Positions 734-29,063 of a DNA stretch of 64,000 nt are shown in pieces (the first letter of the stretch is position 1; each line of letters begins with the position of its first letter). The DNA is from Citrus sinensis (Eukaryota; Streptophyta; Magnoliopsida; Sapindales; Rutaceae). The notes beneath the pieces are model-generated. The model searched no databases, had not been told where the DNA came from, and was given only the letters and a program-made list of their open reading frames with translations. Both the position numbers and the translations under genes were made by a program. Where the stretch lies: assembly GCF_022201045.2 (NCBI RefSeq), contig NC_068558.1:11685501-11749500 (forward strand), given 5' to 3'.

Positions 734-3700
734 TCAAACTACCAATTTTGATTCCTCAAATGCATGATTTTGAGAAGAATTATCATACTTCATGCTTTTT
801 GCAACTTCAAAGAAATGTGCCACAGCTTCTTCGGGAGTCCCAACTAGAACTCCATGTCCTAGATTAAGGATGTGTCCTCTTGATCCCGCACACTTGACAA
901 CCCTGAAAACAGAATCAATCAGCATGAGCACCTGTATCATAGTTTGGAAGTAAATTCTCAGTTGCTATTTTGAGCAGAAAGAAACCACAAGATTCATCAG
1001 CCAAGCCATTATTATTTGTAAAATGATACTCTTGCGGTCTTGTTTCAACTATTCTTTTTGTCTGAACTACCTAGCCTTCAGAATACGAAAAAGATATCAT
1101 CATATACCAGAATGTAATTAAGAATAAGCAGGATGTAAGGATGCACTCAAATAAGTGACAATCAGGTAAATGCTGACAAGTAACCACTACAAACCATGAA
1201 AGGCATCTAGCAGTAGCCTATGGATTACCACTACAAGTTGTTAAAGACAGTTGTAATTATGAATAAGCAGGATGTAAGGATGCACTCAAATAAGTAACAA
1301 TCACGTAAATGCTGACAAGTAACCACTACAAACCATGAAAGGCATCTAGCAGTAGCCTATGGATTACCACTACAAGTTGTTAAAGACAGTTGAAATTGTG
1401 AGGAGATATCAAAACATTACACCACAAGCAATGAGATAGCCTTAAGAATACTTTAAACTTCATGTTTGAATATCAAATAAGAGATACAGACAAATGGGTA
1501 TCAAGAAAAATATGAGTTGAAGAGGATTCCAGCAAGAAGGAGCAGGGCAGGAAGAAGCTCACTAGATAAGAGAAAATGAGGGAGCCAGAGTGAGGAGGAA
1601 TTGGTTGTTTGTGATTTTCCTCAAATCCGTATTCAGTAAAATGAACAATAAGCATAAGAAACCTAAAGAATCGTCGCCATAAAATTATAGGTTATGGTGA
1701 TTCCTGGCCATATCACTCACGTGATGTTGATAGGTACTCACATCCTAGGTGTAACAAATCCACAGAATTACAAATGCATCATGGTAACAAAATCAAACAA
1801 TCCTGTCGCCATACCAATTAAAAAGGGCAAACAAAAAATTATAAGCTACATCACCTTTGAATTTCATCAGTCAATGCAGGAAGAGGAGAAAACAAGCAAG
1901 CAGGATCCACATTCCCCTGCACACTAATGTCATTGCCCAATCTCTTCCTTCCATCCGCCATATCCACTGTCCAGTCAAGCCCAATCACATTAACACCAGT
2001 TCCTTTCATACGCTCAAGAAATCCACCATTTCCATTAATATAGAGAACGATTGGTGTTTCAGGGCATTTAGTCCTCACTAGACTGACAATCTGCATTTTC
2101 AGAAACATCAAAACTATTTATCATAAATTTTGTAAAGTCTAAACAGGCAAAAAGCATGCAATATAGCATGTACAACAAATTTTCAAAAAATAAGTGTAGC
2201 AACATAAAATAGTAATGATACTTCCCACGCATAATACTTCCATCTTTGGAAATTAACATTTTCTATTTATAGAATTCCTAATTCAGCTCCACTGGTATTT
2301 ATATTTTTATCATCCATAAACTTAAAATCACCCAAGAAAACTTCAATAGTTTATTAAGAGAGATAGTGCAATCAATTCAAACAGACTAATGCACAACAAG
2401 AATGAGATAAAAGCTCTTTGTGATAACCCATTTATGCATTTAATTCATTCATTTTACAGCAAGAAAACAATAAGATAGTGTTCACAGTGCAGAGAACGAG
2501 ATTTTTTTTTTTCATCATTTAATAAAGTCCGCAGCAATTTACCTCTCTGATATAAGGCTCCGACCACTGTTCCCACATATGAGGTGGTAGTTGTCCACCC
2601 CATGAATCGAATATTTGTATGCAATGAGCCCCAGACTCCACTTGGTAGATAATATAATCAGCTATTGCCTGTGTTAAATGAGAGAGAAGAGTCCTCAACA
2701 CATGTGGTGCTGTATGACACATACTCTTTATGGTTGTATACGTGCGTGTTGTGCCCCCTTCAACTATATATGTAGCAATTGTCCAAGGAGCTCCAACAAA
2801 TCCGAGAACTGCAGCATGCTCCCCAACCTACATAGAAAGAATAACGTGAAGAAACAGATCGACGTGAAATCATATATTATCTATTACATAAATAAAAGGA
2901 GTATTTTCACCTCATCTTGATGCATGTGAAGAAAAATAATAGAATCACCTCTTTGCGCAAAATCTTAAGGGAATCCCCCACAAACTGAAGTTTTTCCAAA
3001 TCAATATGATGTAGTGCCTTTAATCCCTCTTCAGACCGAATTGGTGACTGAATAACTGGACCTCTAACTTCTTCGATGTCAAATGGAACACCAAATGCAG
3101 GTAGAGGAGTAAGTATGTCAGAGAAAATGATAACTCCATCTGGATGGAAAGCTTCCCAAGGCTGCAAAGAAATTTGAACAATGAGATCAGTTGTCTCTGA
3201 CCTCTCTCTGAACGATGGATGCTTTTCTGCAAGCTTTCTGTAAACAGCCATATACCTTCCTGCCTGGCGCATCATCCATGCTGGTGGTCGACTTACTGGA
3301 TGTCCTTTTGCAGCCTTAACCAAGAGTGGATCTACATAAAATACGAATAAAAAATATGAACAAGATACATGTATCTCAAGATGTGGACGTACACTTCCTA
3401 TATTATATTGTCAATGAAAAGAAAAAGTTCAAGAAACAAAAAAGCCTTATCTTGGTCTTCCTTTTTAATCTTTTGGCAATCCGTGTCCATTGCACTGTGA
3501 GGTTTAGCCAAATGGTTATTCTTTCGGAGACGAAAAGGGGAATGGTGCCAAGTATGTTTGGTAAATGCTAGCTAAAATAAGCTTTGCAAGCTTTCCGTGA
3601 TTTTAACACTCAGGAATTAAGTTATAAATGAAGGTGCAAAAGGAGTATCTGCAGCTACTAGGAGATACAGAAATAAGAATGTGTTCTCAATTTGTTTTAT

Positions 3701-6347: not shown

Positions 6348-7669
6348 ATTACTAGAACTACGCAACGATATATGTATTATAAAAAAAGAAGCTTTCATTC
6401 ACAGTAGATTTATGGTTAAAGTTTTGAAATACATGCACTATTGTCAATGTGGCATGCACCGTTGTGTAGATGCGCTGATGAAAATTTTAATGGCACTAAA
6501 ATTGGCTTAAAGATACAAAATATAAATGCTGATGGCAATTCATGGTGACTCACAGTGCCAGGCGATCAATAATATATTTATAAAGTTAAATAATAAATAT
6601 AAATTATACAAATTTTAAGATATTTATAATTTTAAAAAAATTAGTTTAATATAAAATATTATTATATGTAATATTATACAATATAACACTAAATATTGTA
6701 CAATATTAATATACTACTACAATGCTATTGCTTATAAAATATAATTTAATGCAACACATATCATATTAGTTAATGTAATATATTGTAATGTAATACATTA
6801 TGCCAAACGTATCGGAGTGATTTAACACCTTATTAATGGGTGATTTAATATATAATAAAATTTGTTGATACTTTAGAATTTGTGACGATTGCAACTAACA
6901 ACAATGGTATGAGTTAAAAATTAAAATTGTGATCATGATATTGACTGTAGTGCATTGTTTTCATATTAAATTTGATTGATAATTGTACAAGAGATATTGG
7001 AATAAAAAAGTTGCTTACCTCCATACCAATCATAGGAGGAATTAAACTGATATTTAAGACAAAGATTGTCTAAAAAACATTAACATTTTGAAATGTGGCC
7101 ACCTAAGTGTTACCTAACACAATAATAAAATAAAATAAGAAAGTATTGATATGTTACATTTGAAGAAGCATAGTGACAGCTAAAATCCTCTCAATTTCTC
7201 CTTCAATTTCCAAATATTTTGAAGGAAAATTTAATTCATTTTAGTCCCAATTAAGAAAAATGTAGTATTCTTCTAAAACAGATAAGGGAGTGAGCAAAAT
7301 CTAAATTAGTTTTTTGAATCTCTACTCTCATGACTTAAAAGATGCCGAAATATATTATTTAATACTGCACATAAATCAGATATTATCATAAATAGAATTC
7401 TATTTGGAGTAAAATAATCTGAAATTTGCATGATAGGCAAAACATTTGATTTAAGAAATTGACTTGTTGAACCAGACACTCCTCCTCTGCCATCTTTGTT
7501 AGCATTGTTTTTCCAGCCAACAAAACATTAATCTTCCATATATACAAAACAAGAAACTGTAACCAAACTACTCAAAACAAACAAGAATCAACATCAACAA
7601 TAACGAACCCAAAATAAAGAAATAAATAATAAAAATAAAAACAGCAGAAACACAACACAACAACAATCC
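6348..7669. other. Intergenic, upstream of PNGase A gene 1
   Basis: This is AT-rich spacer. A TATATA stretch in CCATATATACAAAAC near 7540, about 130 bases before the start codon at 7670, is a plausible core promoter. The final 100 bases are A/C-rich with little G, typical of a plant 5' leader. I see no gene. Confidence 0.5.
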
Positions 7670-23056: not shown

Positions 23057-23267
23057 CGCTTTTGAAAGTATAAATAGTAGAGGAAAATATAAATGTACCA
23101 GTCCTGCTACATTATCATTGCTGACTTAAAATTGAACGGTTTTATCATGTTAATAGGATGACGTGATAGGAATGTCTCTCAACTAAGTTACAACTGAGCA
23201 TTATCATCAAAGTCAAAGCAAAAACAAAATGTTATATAACATTTGTCACGCAGTGGAAACTCTTCAC

Positions 23268-23276
23268 CAATTTTTG
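23268..23276 (+). repeat. Target duplication, left copy (CCAATTTTT)
   Basis: The nine bases CCAATTTTT directly flank the left terminus of the Mutator-like element. They are repeated without mismatch at 26441-26449, directly after its right terminus. Nine bases is the typical Mutator target-duplication length. Confidence 0.85.
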
Positions 23277-23708
23277 AGAAATTTATAAAAATAACCATAA
23301 ACATTTTATTATTTTTATAATTATTCATCTTAACTTTTTTCTATCAACATTAGCCAAACACAAGCTTTTCTCCCCAAATTATCCTTCTTTACAGACCAAA
23401 AGCAACATTGTTTTTCCCAGATCGTCAAACCAAACGCAGCTTTCCACTCTTGAATCATCAGCCAACGGCGACGGCAAAAGACAACGGTAAAAGTGAAATC
23501 CGATCATAATCTATCCGGATCCAACACTAATCGACATCACTTAGTGCTATGAGTTATTTTCTGAACTTGCTGAACTGAGTCGGGGGTGAATCTGGCGACA
23601 AGGTGCTTCGGGCGACAGGTTGCTTGTCGCACCAATCCTTGGAGATTCATTAAAACTGTATTATTTTGATAGGGCTTAAATAATTTTTTTTTTATAATTT
23701 CAGGCTTA

Positions 23709-24509
23709 ATGAATTCAGTTGTACTTGAATTGTGGTACGATAGTTGGTGGGAGACATTAGAGGATGACCGTATGGAGTATGTGAATGGTAAAAATCGAGC
23801 TTTTTTGGTTGGGAAAAATTGTCTGTTTGATCAGTTATTGACAAGAGTATACGAGGTGTTATAAATAAACCCTAATGAATATAGTATCACAATAAAGACA
23901 ACTTTGAGGTCTAGTAACACATTATATCGTATATGTGCACTGCCCATGAATATATGTGATGATGAAATGGTGAGGGTTGTGTTGCATATGGCATCCGACG
24001 TAGCCAATTTTGGATGCATTCCTATATTCGTGACCACATCACCTCGAGTTCCGAGCGAAGATATTGAGCCACATGTCGATACAGAAACTTCATTTAGAGC
24101 AAATATGTTTGGCCCCGATAATGATGAAGATGTGTTGCCAAGGACAATATCGCTACAGCAATATTACTCTCCAATCCACGACAATTATGACAACATTGAT
24201 GATAATGACGTTACGTTACAGGATGTTGGAGCAACGGTATTTTCAATAACGACGTTGTTGGAGCAACAGTATTCTCCGTATCACAACAATGATTTTCGGG
24301 ACAATGATGATTTTCATAATGAGACAGAGGGGGATAATGTTTGTGCAGAACCTTCTAATAATACGAGGCGGGGCACTCATTTAAATAATGATGGTGATGA
24401 TGGAGGAGCCGGCCCTTTGAATGTTCCGTCGTTTCAGCATGAGGATGAGTGTGAAGACAATACTCATGTGAATAACAGAGACAATAGATCTATTCCTTCT
24501 ATGGTTTGA
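23709..24509 (+). pseudogene. MURA-like transposase, N-terminal remnant
   Basis: The frame opens at 23709 and is interrupted by one in-frame stop at 23862-23864. It continues open to 24509 in the same frame. The stretch around RICALPMNICDDEMVRVVLH, with an acidic Asp/Asn-rich tail, resembles the N-terminal region of plant MULE transposases that precedes the zinc-ribbon and DDE domains. Neither of those domains follows. The stop codon and the missing catalytic part make it non-functional. Confidence 0.65.
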
Positions 24510-24686
24510 TCGAGAAGGATAATTGACCCCCTTACAAGTCTTGCTCCAACTTTGCCTTCGAACATGGTTGCTCTAAGCTTTATTAGCAGTTGTGACTCAA
24601 ATGATTGATGGTTGGTGCTGTATAAAATATCATTTAAAATTAGTAAATGAAAAGTAAAAAATGTCGATTAAATACTTAGAGTATAC

Positions 24687-25870
24687 CGACATTATGAACC
24701 CAGTCTGGAATGCTTGGCAAGTAATCCTTCACAGAGAGCCAATATTTTCTGCTACTCTCATTTGAATTTGGCTCAAGAGTTTGTAAAACATCCCCCTGCC
24801 ATAAATTCAATTGAAAATTTTAAATAAGTATACATAACTTAAATTTAGTAAAGTTAAAAAATAAGTAATACAAGATGAGATTTATCGTTGAAGAACGAAT
24901 AAACCTCCGCAAAGTTGATTCTCGAAGACGCCATGGGCTTCCATTGCAGAATGCGGGGAATCTTCTTCTTCGTTTTGACAACCCATGTTGATGGCAACCC
25001 TCCGATTGCTTCGTAAATCCAAGCCTACAACAACCAAAGTGAAAAAATCAAATAAAACAACTATCAAATATTTAATACTATAAAACTTATTAATAAACAA
25101 AAAAAACGCACCTGAACCCCGGACATAAAGCCGTAAAGATTGTATTTTTCAATGTTATGATCTGGATTTTTCAACTGAGTCTTCTTAAATTTCTCGTCTT
25201 TCTCGAACAGTGCATTGTCAAGACTCTCGTAAATCATTTCCCACGACAATAGACCCCATGGACGCTTTCGGAAGTACTGTATATCATCAACTTGGTCAAG
25301 CCAATCGAAATTGATTTGACAGTGATTTTTTCTTACATTTAGTACTCTGTCCGCAAAATAAAACATCGCAATCTTTAATGCGTTCATATCGTCCATTTTC
25401 TCGAATTTCAACTTCTTAAATACTGCATCGAATTCATTCACATTAATCTTACGATGCACACCACCAAAATACGTATTCCGTAGTCTCTGCTCCATTTCAT
25501 CATTTTTTTTATTGGTATCAACACCAAATGAAAGTCCAGTAACCAAGCACTATTCGACAATTGACAAGCGAATCAAATGCTCACAAATTTGAAACTATAA
25601 CTGATCCTTACGGCTATCTTCTTCATGGGCCACTTGCCTCAGTAAAAGATTGTGCAAAATTACCCCACTAAATGAAAAACTTCGACACTCCAAGAAATGC
25701 CCAAATATATCATTTTTGAACATACTCAACTGCTGCTTTGTTAATTTTTCCTCGATGGCTTTTACGACCGAAGATAACTTACACATGCTCGAAATTCGAC
25801 CAGGAAAGTGATCGGCATAACGAAAATACATATTGCCTACTTCGATATTCGGTGATTCTGATTTCGCCAT
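24687..25870 (-). pseudogene. DUF1985 protein, transposon-borne, broken
   Basis: Exons on the minus strand are 25112-25870, 24905-25024 and 24687-24794, with GT-AG borders. The first exon encodes a DUF1985-like domain (RISSMCKLSSVVKAIEEKL, then GVILHNLLLR, then CLVTGLSFG and the YFGG motif). It has two in-frame TAG codons, at 25592-25594 and 25547-25549, where the family has sense codons. Later exons hold AWIYEAIGGLPSTWV and a Trp/Asp-rich segment. In related elements this domain sits upstream of a Ulp1-like SUMO peptidase; no catalytic His-Asp-Cys set is visible here. The reading frame is otherwise well kept, so the loss is recent on an evolutionary scale. Confidence 0.72.
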
Positions 25871-25953
25871 GTATCTGTAATATTTATAAAATTATTACAT
25901 TACATTTACAGAAAAAAAAAATTGACTTGTTAAAAAAAAAGGCCACTCTAATC

Positions 25954-25981
25954 CTGTCGCACCAAAAATTTGGTGCGACAG
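25954..25981. repeat. 28-bp perfect palindrome with TGTCGCACCA arms
   Basis: The arm CTGTCGCACCAAA is followed by two bases and then its exact complement. The same TGTCGCACCA core occurs near the other end of this element (23625-23634) and in the related element (27878-27887). Its recurrence suggests a family-specific sequence rather than chance. Confidence 0.8.
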
Positions 25982-26449
25982 CGGGGCGCGCGAGTGCCCC
26001 CTGCCCCCTCCCTCCCCACCCCCAAAATTAATCTACAACACTCCAAAATCGAAAAACAATATTCCCAAACACCACCAACCACCACAAACACCACCACCAT
26101 CAACATTATTCTCAAACTATAACTATTATTATTCTAAAATTTCATTTTAAATTAATGAAAATAAGAAAAATGACTAACCTAGGTTTTGTTGAAGGTTGTA
26201 GATCGTAGATCGGATGCTGGTGAGAGATGGAGTTGCCGCCGACGAGGGTTGATGTTGCCGCCGATGATGGGAGTTGGATCGGTTTGGGAGAGATGAGTGA
26301 AATGGAGTGTTGGGGGAGAGATGAGGGAGAAGAGTATTTTGGTCTCAAAGGTTGTTTTATGGCTAATGTTGATAGAAATACTTTTGGGGGGTTAAAATAA
26401 AAAAAATCAAAACTTTAATGATTATTACTATAAATTTCCCCCAATTTTT

Positions 26450-26951
26450 CCTCATGGATGAAAGTTGGAGCTTGACTGGCGGGGCCTGTTGTTGCTTAGG
26501 GTTTATCTCCTGCCAGCCGTTGCATTTTTTGAAGTTGAACAGCTGTTGTTTCACAACATCGATATTGATGATTCCATTCGGCATCCTGCAAGTTTTTTTT
26601 TTTTTGGTACTTATGACACTGACATCATACATCGTGCAGCAGGCAGCATCGATAAAAATGTTTTCAAATTGAGAAATTACCATAATTACCCTACACAATC
26701 AATGCCAATGGTGAAGGGACAAAAAATGGGGATGACTAACGAAGGGTTACCCTGAAAGGGAGCAAAGTATCAGTAGATCAACAATCATTTCAAACTGAAA
26801 ACAACAACAAACTTCAGGGGGGTAATCCAAACTGCCCAAATTTTATATTTATAGACTGTAGAGCTCTGTCTTCCTCTTCTTTCTTCCCTGTAATATCAGT
26901 AGCTTAAGGATATATTGTGAACTAAGATAACACTCATGATTGTCTAATATT
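26450..26951. other. Spacer between two Mutator-like elements
   Basis: About 500 bases of host sequence separate the two elements. Overlapping short frames near 26418-26755 are open but match nothing I recognise, and a poly-T run crosses them. I see no gene. Confidence 0.5.
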
Positions 26952-27266
26952 GGGAAATTTACAAAAAAAGCCAAAAAAATTAGGCATTTTTCAACTTTAA
27001 CCCCTCAAACTTTTTTCTTTCAACATTAGCCAAATCATCAAATTGTGGACGAAATTGCCCTCCCCATTCTCACGTTTCCCTCAAGCAAATTTCCCCCCTT
27101 CTCACCAAAATCTCATCACCGGAAGTTGTATAGATCGTCGGCGGCAGCGTAGATCGGCAGCGGAAGAAGTTGTCGGCGGCTGAAAGAATCTAAATCACGT
27201 TGAAAATCTTCGGAGATCTCCAAAATCAAAGAAAAAAATAAAAACCCTAGGTGAGTTGTTATTGTC

Positions 27267-27300
<34 letters not shown>

Positions 27301-27395
27301 GTGGTGTTTAATGGCGGTGGTGGGTGAGATGCATGTGGGAAAGGGAAGGGAAGAGAAAGAGAAGAGAAAGAGAAGAGAAAGGGAAGGGGAAGTGA

Positions 27396-27805
27396 AGGCA
27401 TGCATGCGTTGCGCGCGAGATTCGCGCGCCGCGCGCATTTCGCGTGCGACAGGTGCTACGTCGCGCGCGAGATGCTCGCAGCGTGCGCATCTCACGTGCG
27501 ACAGGTGCTGCGTCGCGCGCGAGATGCTCGCAGCGTGCGCATCTCGCGTGTGACAGGCGATGCATCGCGCGCGAGATTCTCACGCCGCGCGCATTTCGCG
27601 TGCGACAGGTGCTGCGTCGCGAGCGAGATGCTCGCAGCGTACGCATCTTGCGTACGACAGGCGATGCGTCGCGCGCGAGATTCGCACGCCGCGCGCATCT
27701 CACGCGCGACGCAGCACCTATCGCAAGCGAGATGCGCGCGGTGTGCGAATCTCGTGCACGACGCAGCACCTGTCGCGCTCGAGATGCGCATGCTGCGCGC
27801 CAGCC
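27396..27805. repeat. Array of about eight 52-bp CpG-rich hairpin units
   Basis: Units begin at 27396, 27448, 27500, 27552, 27604, 27656, 27708 and 27760, an exact 52-base step, although the sequence diverges between units. Most units contain CGCGAGATGC or a variant, followed about ten bases later by its complement GCATCTCGCG, so each can fold into a stem-loop. The block is extremely rich in CG dinucleotides in an otherwise AT-rich region. Open frames across it on all strands reflect low stop-codon content, not coding. Confidence 0.9.
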
Positions 27806-28223
27806 AGCGGCCTCGCGCGCGAGAGTTGCGGGCAGGCTTGCACGCAGCTCGCGCACGCTTGGCTTCCCTCGCACGCCTGTCGCACCAAGAGGTGCTGCCT
27901 CGTGGTGCGACGGGGTGCCAAGAGGTGCTGCCTGTTGGTGCGACGGGCACCCCGTCGCACCAAGAGGCAATGCGTGGTGCATTTCCCATTGCACTTTACC
28001 ATGAAGCTTTGCCAAAGCTGGCTTTGTGGATTGATTAGTAGCATTGGCGTAATGATACTACACAATTTGCTTCACTCTATAAATTCTATTAATTGCAATG
28101 CAAATCATATCTTGCAGCACATATACATTTAAAGCAACAAGCTTTGCACATTTGGTGGCAAGAATTAATTCGTTTTTTTTCTTTTTTATGTAGGATATAA
28201 GGTGAAGCATTAATTCAGGTAGT

Positions 28224-28472
28224 TTGCGGCCACTAATGACAAACATTCCAGCTTCTTCCATGTATAGTGTGAGATCAAGATCCACAAAAAGTAGGACAGT
28301 TAGTGTTACAGACTCTCCTCTTGCCACAAGCAGCAATGCTAGCTCTGAACCAAGTGCCAACAACAACTCCTCTATTTTAGACGGAAGTGAACTCGATGAC
28401 ATTCATGATTTTGGGAGTGAGAGAGGAAACTCCTCCCCTGTAAGGCACAATACAACAGAAAACAATTTATAA
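28224..28472 (+). other. Ser-rich open frame inside the Mutator-like element
   Basis: An 82-codon frame follows a T-rich tract ending in TATGTAG, a plausible splice acceptor near 28190. It encodes a Ser/Asn-rich peptide with VRSRSTKSRTVSVTDSPLAT. The codon composition looks less random than its surroundings. It could be a captured piece of a host exon. I do not recognise it. Confidence 0.3.
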
Positions 28473-28769
28473 CATTAAAAATTATAGACTAATTAGAGTA
28501 AGGCACAATACAATCTCGATAAATTAATAGTTTGCGACCATAAAAAATATATTAATTTATCAATAGATTAATAATTTATGAAATATGGTACTATAATTAA
28601 AGAATGTAGTGATTTTATCAAGTTATATGATATGATTCTAAATAATCTTTTTGGAGGCAATATATTAGATTTACTTCGTCTCATCGTAAGCTTCGAAACA
28701 ATATATTATACGCCTAAAACGGACACATGTAGCCCAAGTTATTACTTTCAGAAAATAACTTAAATTTAG

Positions 28770-28905
28770 TGAGACAGACAGTGGGACAGGTGCCTGTCTC
28801 ACATAAAACCAGCAGATTTATGTGAGACAGGCGCCTGTCCCACTTGCCTGTCTCACATAAAACCAGTGATAACTAGTGAGACAGGCGCCTGTCTCACATA
28901 AAAGG
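28770..28905. repeat. Palindromic GACAGGCGCCTGTC repeats
   Basis: Four diverged copies of a GTGAGACAGG... unit lie close together, separated by CATAAAACCAG spacers. The copy at 28876-28897 is a perfect 22-base palindrome centred on CAGGCGCCTG. Another at 28822-28843 has one mismatch. They lie close to the right terminus of the Mutator-like element. Confidence 0.85.
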
Positions 28906-29063
28906 GAATAGTGGCATACCTTTGTAAATTTGATGAAAATGATGAGGGTAATGTAGTCCAAAAATAGGGTGTTTGGCTAATTATGATAGAAAAAAATTTG
29001 AGGGATTAAAGTTGAAAAATGCCTAATTTTTTTGGCTATTTTTGTAAATTTCCCAATATTATT

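Follow-up and report, generated by a model that had tools for sequence, protein, structure and literature searches.

A short word retained by two Mutator-like elements of Citrus sinensis is a candidate recognition motif of their group's VANC-type DUF1985-Ulp1 protein

Why should two neighbouring transposable elements whose interiors look unrelated keep the same short word? The question is raised by a 64,000-nucleotide stretch of the Citrus sinensis genome (contig NC_068558.1; G000:C3:11685501-11749500; hereafter the window), in which two Mutator-like elements (MULEs) lie side by side, a large one at 23276-26440 and a small one at 26952-29054, both given on the plus strand. Both contain the word TGTCGCACCA, and a preliminary description of the window proposed that a motif retained in a replaced interior could be a binding site for the family's transposase. 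We searched the whole genome (300 Mb, 11 contigs) and compared the two elements with their full-length relatives. The results suggest that TGTCGCACCA, along with its variant CGTCGCACCA and often set in facing pairs or in arrays of ~31-bp repeats, is probably the recognition motif of the group's own VANC-type DUF1985-Ulp1 protein; we take it as the target of this protein because its pattern is what a VANC system predicts. From the earlier proposal we keep the retention in a replaced interior and the binding site, and disfavour the transposase as the binder.

The full-length relatives define the group. L061, L062 and L064 (family A) and L099 (family B, 8.1 kb) have inverted ends, a MURA gene and a convergent gene region with DUF1985 first and Ulp1 last; a further copy, L063, is family A-like with one end uncertain. 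We found the MULE transposase domain PF10551 in L061, L064 and L099 (expect value (E) 4.1e-18, 3.2e-18 and 1.9e-19), DBD_Tnp_Mut in the same three and SWIM in L064 and L099. The Ulp1 protease domain (Peptidase_C48, PF02902; E 8e-21 in L062, 4.2e-20 in L063 and 3.7e-17 in L099) lies in the same gene region as DUF1985, and a single transcript is presumed. The inverted ends are ~80-128 bp long and 70-85% alike. A target-site duplication of 9 bp is perfect in the large element, L061 and L064 and matches at 8 of 9 positions in L062; none was seen for L063, with its uncertain end, or for the small element. With both a transposase domain and a ~9-bp duplication, the elements are Mutator-like, as had been described. 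The two window elements do not belong to the single family that had been supposed but to two sister families (between full-length copies, MURA is 75% identical over 814 amino acids (aa) and the DUF1985 exon 59% over 218 aa).

The motif occupies a particular part of these elements. In L061, L062, L064 and L099, all 20 of the 8-base motif cores lie outside the gene spans, where non-gene spans make up 23% of the length, and all are confined to the stretch between the element end and the nearest gene start (L063 was omitted from this count for its uncertain ends; its seven cores also lie outside tblastn matches). Core sites stand just 5' of the DUF1985-Ulp1 gene and, in family A, also 5' of the transposase gene. 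When the DUF1985 profile was compared with PDB up to E 5, its sole relative was VANC21 (9lnj, 9lnk; E 1.5e-11). Furthermore, an intact 218-aa N-terminal open reading frame (ORF) of L087 is collinear with positions 31-237 of VANC21 (E 9e-6), and the L099 ORF gave E 4e-5. These elements encode a DUF1985 protein (PF09331) homologous to VANC and carry a family-specific short noncoding motif, dense or in tandem, as is characteristic of VANC-type systems.

How specific is the word? Genome-wide, TGTCGCACCA has 1,571 copies and its reversed word 73. The positions described earlier in the window (23625, the palindromic 25955/25971, and 27878) were confirmed, with three copies of CGTCGCACCA besides in the small element. 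With at most one mismatch allowed, the window holds 9 matches (two of them at 57.3 kb) compared with 1.57 +/- 1.35 after shuffling, and none of 100 shuffles reached 9. For other members we used a set of family B terminus loci, the best 29 of 39 matches listed besides the query (L001, left out), from 674 candidates. As the preliminary description had anticipated for a family motif, other members keep the word and it is not equally common outside: the exact word was present on the inner side in 27 of the 29 loci, with 46 copies inside, and in none of the 29 in the outer 1.5 kb. On the same inner side, 29 of its 30 one-base neighbours had 0-1 copies, the exception being CGTCGCACCA with 21, and each of the 203 permutations that keep the CG had at most one copy.

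A constant distance from the transposon ends had also been expected but did not emerge; the sites keep more closely to a set distance from the DUF1985 domain. In family B the last forward motif lies 621-1,586 bp from the terminus (standard deviation (sd) 242), whereas in 16 of the 19 loci where it could be measured the distance to the DUF1985 domain downstream is 363-415 bp (500, 789 and 1,002 bp in the three outliers; sd 165 with these included). When 12 DUF1985-upstream regions of family A were aligned, the exact word stood in the aligned column in 8 and a one-mismatch form in the other 4 (L061, L089, L090, L098); at least one exact copy occurred somewhere in 11 of the 12, with L089 as the exception. 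Arrays in these regions hold between one and about eight sites; some copies resemble one another in the farther flank, and in others it has been replaced. None of the 30 best matches listed between families A and B begins ahead of the coding part.

These distances bear on the proposal that the motif is a subterminal binding site of the family's MURA transposase, needed for excision. The motif does occupy subterminal noncoding regions at both ends in family A, at the termini examined it was confined to the inner side, and the link to a DUF1985 clade described below could hold for MURA too. However, MURA sites are expected to be the terminal repeats themselves, and the distance from the terminus is loose in family B where that to the DUF1985 domain is tight. 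Moreover, one MURA must act at both ends, yet the two ends of L099 differ: two TGTCGCACCA and one CGTCGCACCA lie on its DUF1985 side, and its transposase side (7340-7633) has mainly TGTCTCAC, with 14 TGTCTCAC/GTGAGACA sites on both strands and one TGTCGCAC core at 7541. TGTCTCAC was absent from the four family A elements; TGTCTCACAT occurs 863 times genome-wide against 313 for its reversed word, and by eye some clusters among the 100 places listed sit in family B copies. We consider a MURA site improbable. The VANC-type DUF1985 protein appears the likelier binder, because the distance to its domain is tighter than that to the terminus and because the motif tracks a DUF1985 clade.

This clade was seen in a tree of 44 DUF1985 domains, a non-random set from 150 scored loci (332 candidates) made up of 20 mostly top-scoring loci (L065-L084), 14 spread over the list (L085-L098), 8 belonging to terminus loci and 2 fetched by the motif (L061, L064); the tree does not include the DUF1985 genes of L062 and L063, which fall outside the 150. 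The tree has two well-supported sides. With 700 bp of upstream sequence inspected for L085-L098 and ~1.5 kb or more for the others, the exact motif was found in one clade at 18 of 23 loci and in the other at 0 of 21 (Fisher p 3e-8 with relatedness disregarded), or at 16 of 21 loci of the motif clade once L061 and L064 are removed. In the motif clade, 315-409 bp separate the nearest forward copy from the DUF1985 domain downstream. Of the 10 DUF1985 matches listed on contig C1, 9 have the motif ~300-420 bp upstream, and the tenth belongs to the other clade (by eye).

Other lineages carry other words. Two exceptions within the motif clade have repeated words of their own, TCGCACAAA in L093 and GCGACAAG in L095. 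In the other clade, upstream words such as GTCGTGTAA and GTCGAGTAAA are common to L065-L068, L070 and L076, AAAGAATTCT occurs upstream in these same loci and in L080, and L083 has an upstream array of ATTACACGACC. The palindrome GTAAAGAATTCTTTAC was found at 26 places genome-wide and its reversed form at none; by eye, 16 of the 26 are within ~0.7 kb upstream of a listed DUF1985 match and 10 are not. The presence of these alternative words upstream is no test in itself, because they were picked for being seen 5' of DUF1985 loci. The variety of words is relevant to a further explanation, in which the motif would be a host transcription factor site driving the element's genes, for example that of an auxin response factor. 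TGTCTC is the textbook auxin response element, TGTCTCAC contains it at 14 sites on both strands of the family B transposase side, and sites stand just 5' of both genes. Nevertheless, different words in different DUF1985 lineages are not expected of a shared host factor, and family B is nearly without one-base neighbours beyond the first base of the 10-mer, which makes a host factor very unlikely in our judgement.

Some DUF1985 and word arrays deserve mention in their own right. Dense arrays of TCGCACAAA ~8 kb apart (C1:13466813-13467064 and C1:13475047-13475774) are arranged as one would expect if another full-length family had a word of its own. At C4:19391872-19401900, seven tandem DUF1985 copies at exact 1,607-bp steps, with one TAA in each, constitute an amplified gene fragment. 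Another seven copies, on C2, C3, C5 and C6, share an equal score of 74.4 bits and a stop-free 269-aa frame, suggesting a recent amplification of family B.

The spacing of the sites is also regular. Direct TGTCGCACCA pairs 16-46 bp apart occur at 554 places, compared with 0 for the reversed word. Among the first 100 of these places, all on C1-C3, the spacing is 30-32 bp in 79; counted as one mode per cluster, it is 30-32 bp in 22 of 32 clusters, where ~3 would be expected if spacings were uniform. On C1, most same-strand spacings fall at 30-34 bp, and there are small numbers at 18-21, 42 and 60-65 bp. A step of 30-32 bp is about three turns of B-DNA, and the 52-bp repeat of the small element is close to five helical turns. 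Helical periodicity and non-autonomous copies are reportedly both mentioned in the work of Sasaki on eudicot anti-silencing (EMBO J, 2022). Facing motif pairs were found at 226 places, again compared with 0 for the reversed word.

Arrays of this sort raise the explanation that the motif has no binding function and is an inherited satellite-like or hairpin-forming repeat, expanded by slippage and hitchhiking with the elements. The many copies in tandem arrays and facing pairs and the 52-bp GC-rich tandem repeat of the small element fit such a history. On the other hand, single-site family A copies exist in which the exact word is kept, and in L061, L062 and L064 the word stands in two gene-upstream regions between which no other similarity besides the termini was detected at E 1e-3. 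The CpG of TGTCGCACCA is also retained, though one deaminated form of the word, TGTCACACCA, has only 510 copies against 255 for its reversal. We regard a purely hitchhiking repeat as highly improbable.

The elements as a whole are rich in CpG. Observed/expected CpG is 0.91-1.03 in the four family A elements compared with 0.65-0.79 in their flanks, and 0.94 and 1.24 in the two window elements compared with 0.49 in the rest of the window; the value of the small element is lifted by its GC-rich repeat (1.55 at 27401-27970). A more speculative idea, which we hold to be rather doubtful, is that recognition depends, through the core CpG, on the same methylation that the protein would remove: a methylated site would be left unbound and an unmethylated one bound, which would make a heritable on/off switch. 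The two words of family B, TGTCGCACCA at the anti-silencing gene (methylation-gated) and TGTCTCAC at the transposase gene (not CpG-gated), might then split self-activation from transposase activation.

For the DUF1985-Ulp1 protein we infer DNA binding, methylation loss and mobilisation in trans. Full-length members would encode the protein, which would bind the motif clusters 5' of the gene that encodes it and 5' of the transposase gene, with the variant TGTCTCAC serving as the main site on the transposase side of family B. The bound protein would strip silencing marks from the whole element, leading to expression and transposition. Non-autonomous copies, both window elements among them, would drop coding sequence, keep termini and motif clusters, and so be de-silenced and mobilised in trans.

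Several observations weigh against recognition by the DUF1985 protein. The exact motif is missing from 2 of the 29 family B loci; in the motif clade, L093 and L018 have neither the exact word nor the 8-base core, and L089, L092 and L095 have the core alone. The link to the clade may equally hold for MURA, as the tree was built for DUF1985 alone. Counts within a family overstate the independent evidence because its copies share ancestry. Spacing is support and not proof, since tandem duplication can copy a spacing and could by itself produce equal ones, and high CpG content fits escape from methylation and also the youth of the elements. In a good number of loci from the other clade (L069, L071-L075, L077-L079, L081, L084), no array-like repeated word was evident by eye. 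Two of the alternative words are less specific genome-wide, TCGCACAAA with 1,838 copies against 1,011 reversed and ATTACACGACCT with 185 against 41, and among 100 places listed for ATTACACGACCT only 6, at C3:33956 kb, lie less than 1 kb from a listed DUF1985 match (by eye).

How did the two window elements come by their sites? Judged by alignment, the large element is a 7.1-kb-type element minus one internal stretch: its positions 3-1330 and 1327-3165 match L062 3-1377 and 5277-7122 at 90% and 91%, and the remainder of MURA and the Ulp1 part are gone. The two alignments overlap by 4 bp at the junction (24602-24605), a possible microhomology. The inverted ends of this element are GAGAAATTTA at 23276 and, on the minus strand, GGGAAATTTA at 26440, and the perfect 9-bp duplication reported for it, CCAATTTTT, was recovered on both sides (23267-23275 and 26441-26449). 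One TGTCGCACCA (23625-23634, plus strand) stands 5' of the MURA relic (23694-24605, plus strand), an N-terminal part truncated by the internal deletion that was identified by tblastn at 80.7-84.9% identity over 285-304 aa (84.9% over 304 aa to L064 MURA); the 201-aa open frame at 23904-24509 within it had by itself no Pfam match. The DUF1985 relic (25244-25891, minus strand), the broken first coding part of the VANC-type gene, is 89% identical to L064 over 216 aa by tblastn, and Pfam PF09331 matched 25064-25546 (E 1.6e-11), so both reported gene relics are borne out. The 28-bp palindrome of two facing TGTCGCACCA (25954-25981; words at 25955 and 25971) lies ~85 bp upstream of the ATG of this relic (25870).

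The small element is, on the same kind of evidence, a non-autonomous deletion derivative of the sister family B plus a captured genomic fragment. Its terminal arms are 128 nucleotides long and 85% complementary, and its flanks show no perfect 9-bp duplication. The left end through the first TGTCGCACCA (26952-27911, plus strand) is 73.5% identical to L099 27-974 over 1027 columns; it includes the GC-rich 52-bp tandem repeat (27404-27814), which contains GTGCGACAGG (27444, 27496, 27600) and GTGTGACAGG (27548). A motif cluster follows at 27878-27962, with TGTCGCACCA at 27878 and CGTCGCACCA at 27903, 27936 and 27953. The 463-bp middle stretch (27985-28447, plus strand; left limit provisional) is 96% identical to C6:16557990-16558456, so the element has captured other genomic DNA; the stretch has a weaker second match on C4 (81% over part), and an 82-aa open frame inside it had no Pfam match at E 0.1. 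The transposase-side region with its TGTCTCAC/GTGAGACA array (28662-28897, plus strand) is 96% identical to L099 7233-7468, and the right end, with the right terminal inverted repeat (TIR; 28934-29054, minus strand), is 95% identical to L099. The interiors, which had been called unrelated, are not simply so, as each element derives by deletion from a full-length relative. Motif sites survive towards the two ends of both elements: the large one has TGTCGCACCA at left and right, and the small one has TGTCGCACCA on the left with the TGTCTCAC array on the right. The block reported as shared by the two, TTAGCCAAA, was found at 23350, 27026 and 28980, and it also lies outside both elements at 3504, 54227 and 60931 of the window.

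If the motif is what we propose, a VANC-type anti-silencing protein from a plant other than Arabidopsis would have an exact target word assigned to it. The word would come with a large natural set of more than 1,500 sites, with lineages that differ in their words and with deletion derivatives in which the sites persist, and protein-target co-evolution and trans activation of non-autonomous copies would be open to ordinary binding assays and methylation data. A literature search for the TGTCGCACCA 10-mer and its complement gave unrelated titles only among the matches listed, the motif tables of Sasaki 2022 being outside that search.

How does this group compare with known systems? CitMule of Citrus, as described in PMC4334395, is likewise a ~7-kb Mutator-like element with 9-bp duplications. 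Its transposase, however, has a FAR1 DNA-binding domain, its TIRs are short and degenerate, and 'Ulp1' and 'DUF' occur 0 times in the PMC4334395 text; we rejected it as the family of the window elements for its other transposase type. VANDALs in the strict sense are non-TIR MULEs with degenerate or absent TIRs, and our elements are not VANDALs in that sense because TIRs are present. According to a 2026 review (PMC13317346), the motifs that Ulp1-bearing VANCs recognise are noncoding ones within the group of elements to which each VANC belongs. The Kaonashi (KIU) and other Ulp1-bearing VANC elements of that account resemble ours in an Ulp1-bearing VANC-type gene within a Mutator-like element, the Ulp1 domain lying in the DUF1985 gene region here too, and in family-specific noncoding motifs. 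They are called non-TIR there, whereas the Citrus elements have TIRs, and the comparison is one of descriptions and not of motif words.

The closest parallels are in Arabidopsis. According to Hosaka 2017 (PMC5735166), VANC21 and VANC6 bind distinct short family-specific words in noncoding tandem repeats, and methylation loss follows; a crystal structure of VANC21 is mentioned as then unpublished in a passage of PMC8756742. VANC6 of VANDAL6, with the motif AGTTGTCC or AGTTGTAC (PMC5735166), is a second VANC lineage with its own tandem-repeat word, much as words differ between Citrus DUF1985 lineages. Its word differs from ours, and the AGTTGTGTAA and GTCGTGTAA words of some other Citrus lineages bear it a loose resemblance only. 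The Citrus system is unlike VANDAL21 (Hiun), whose VANC21 motif is YAGTATTAY (PMC5735166), in its different word with a core CpG, in TIRs of ~80-128 bp, in the Ulp1 domain of its DUF1985 gene region and in being read here from DNA alone. It is like VANDAL21, as that element is presented in PMC5735166, in having a homologous DUF1985 protein, a transposase gene in the same element, and a short family-specific word that is dense, repeated, noncoding and near the element's genes. The kind of system is one already known from Arabidopsis, with different docking words.

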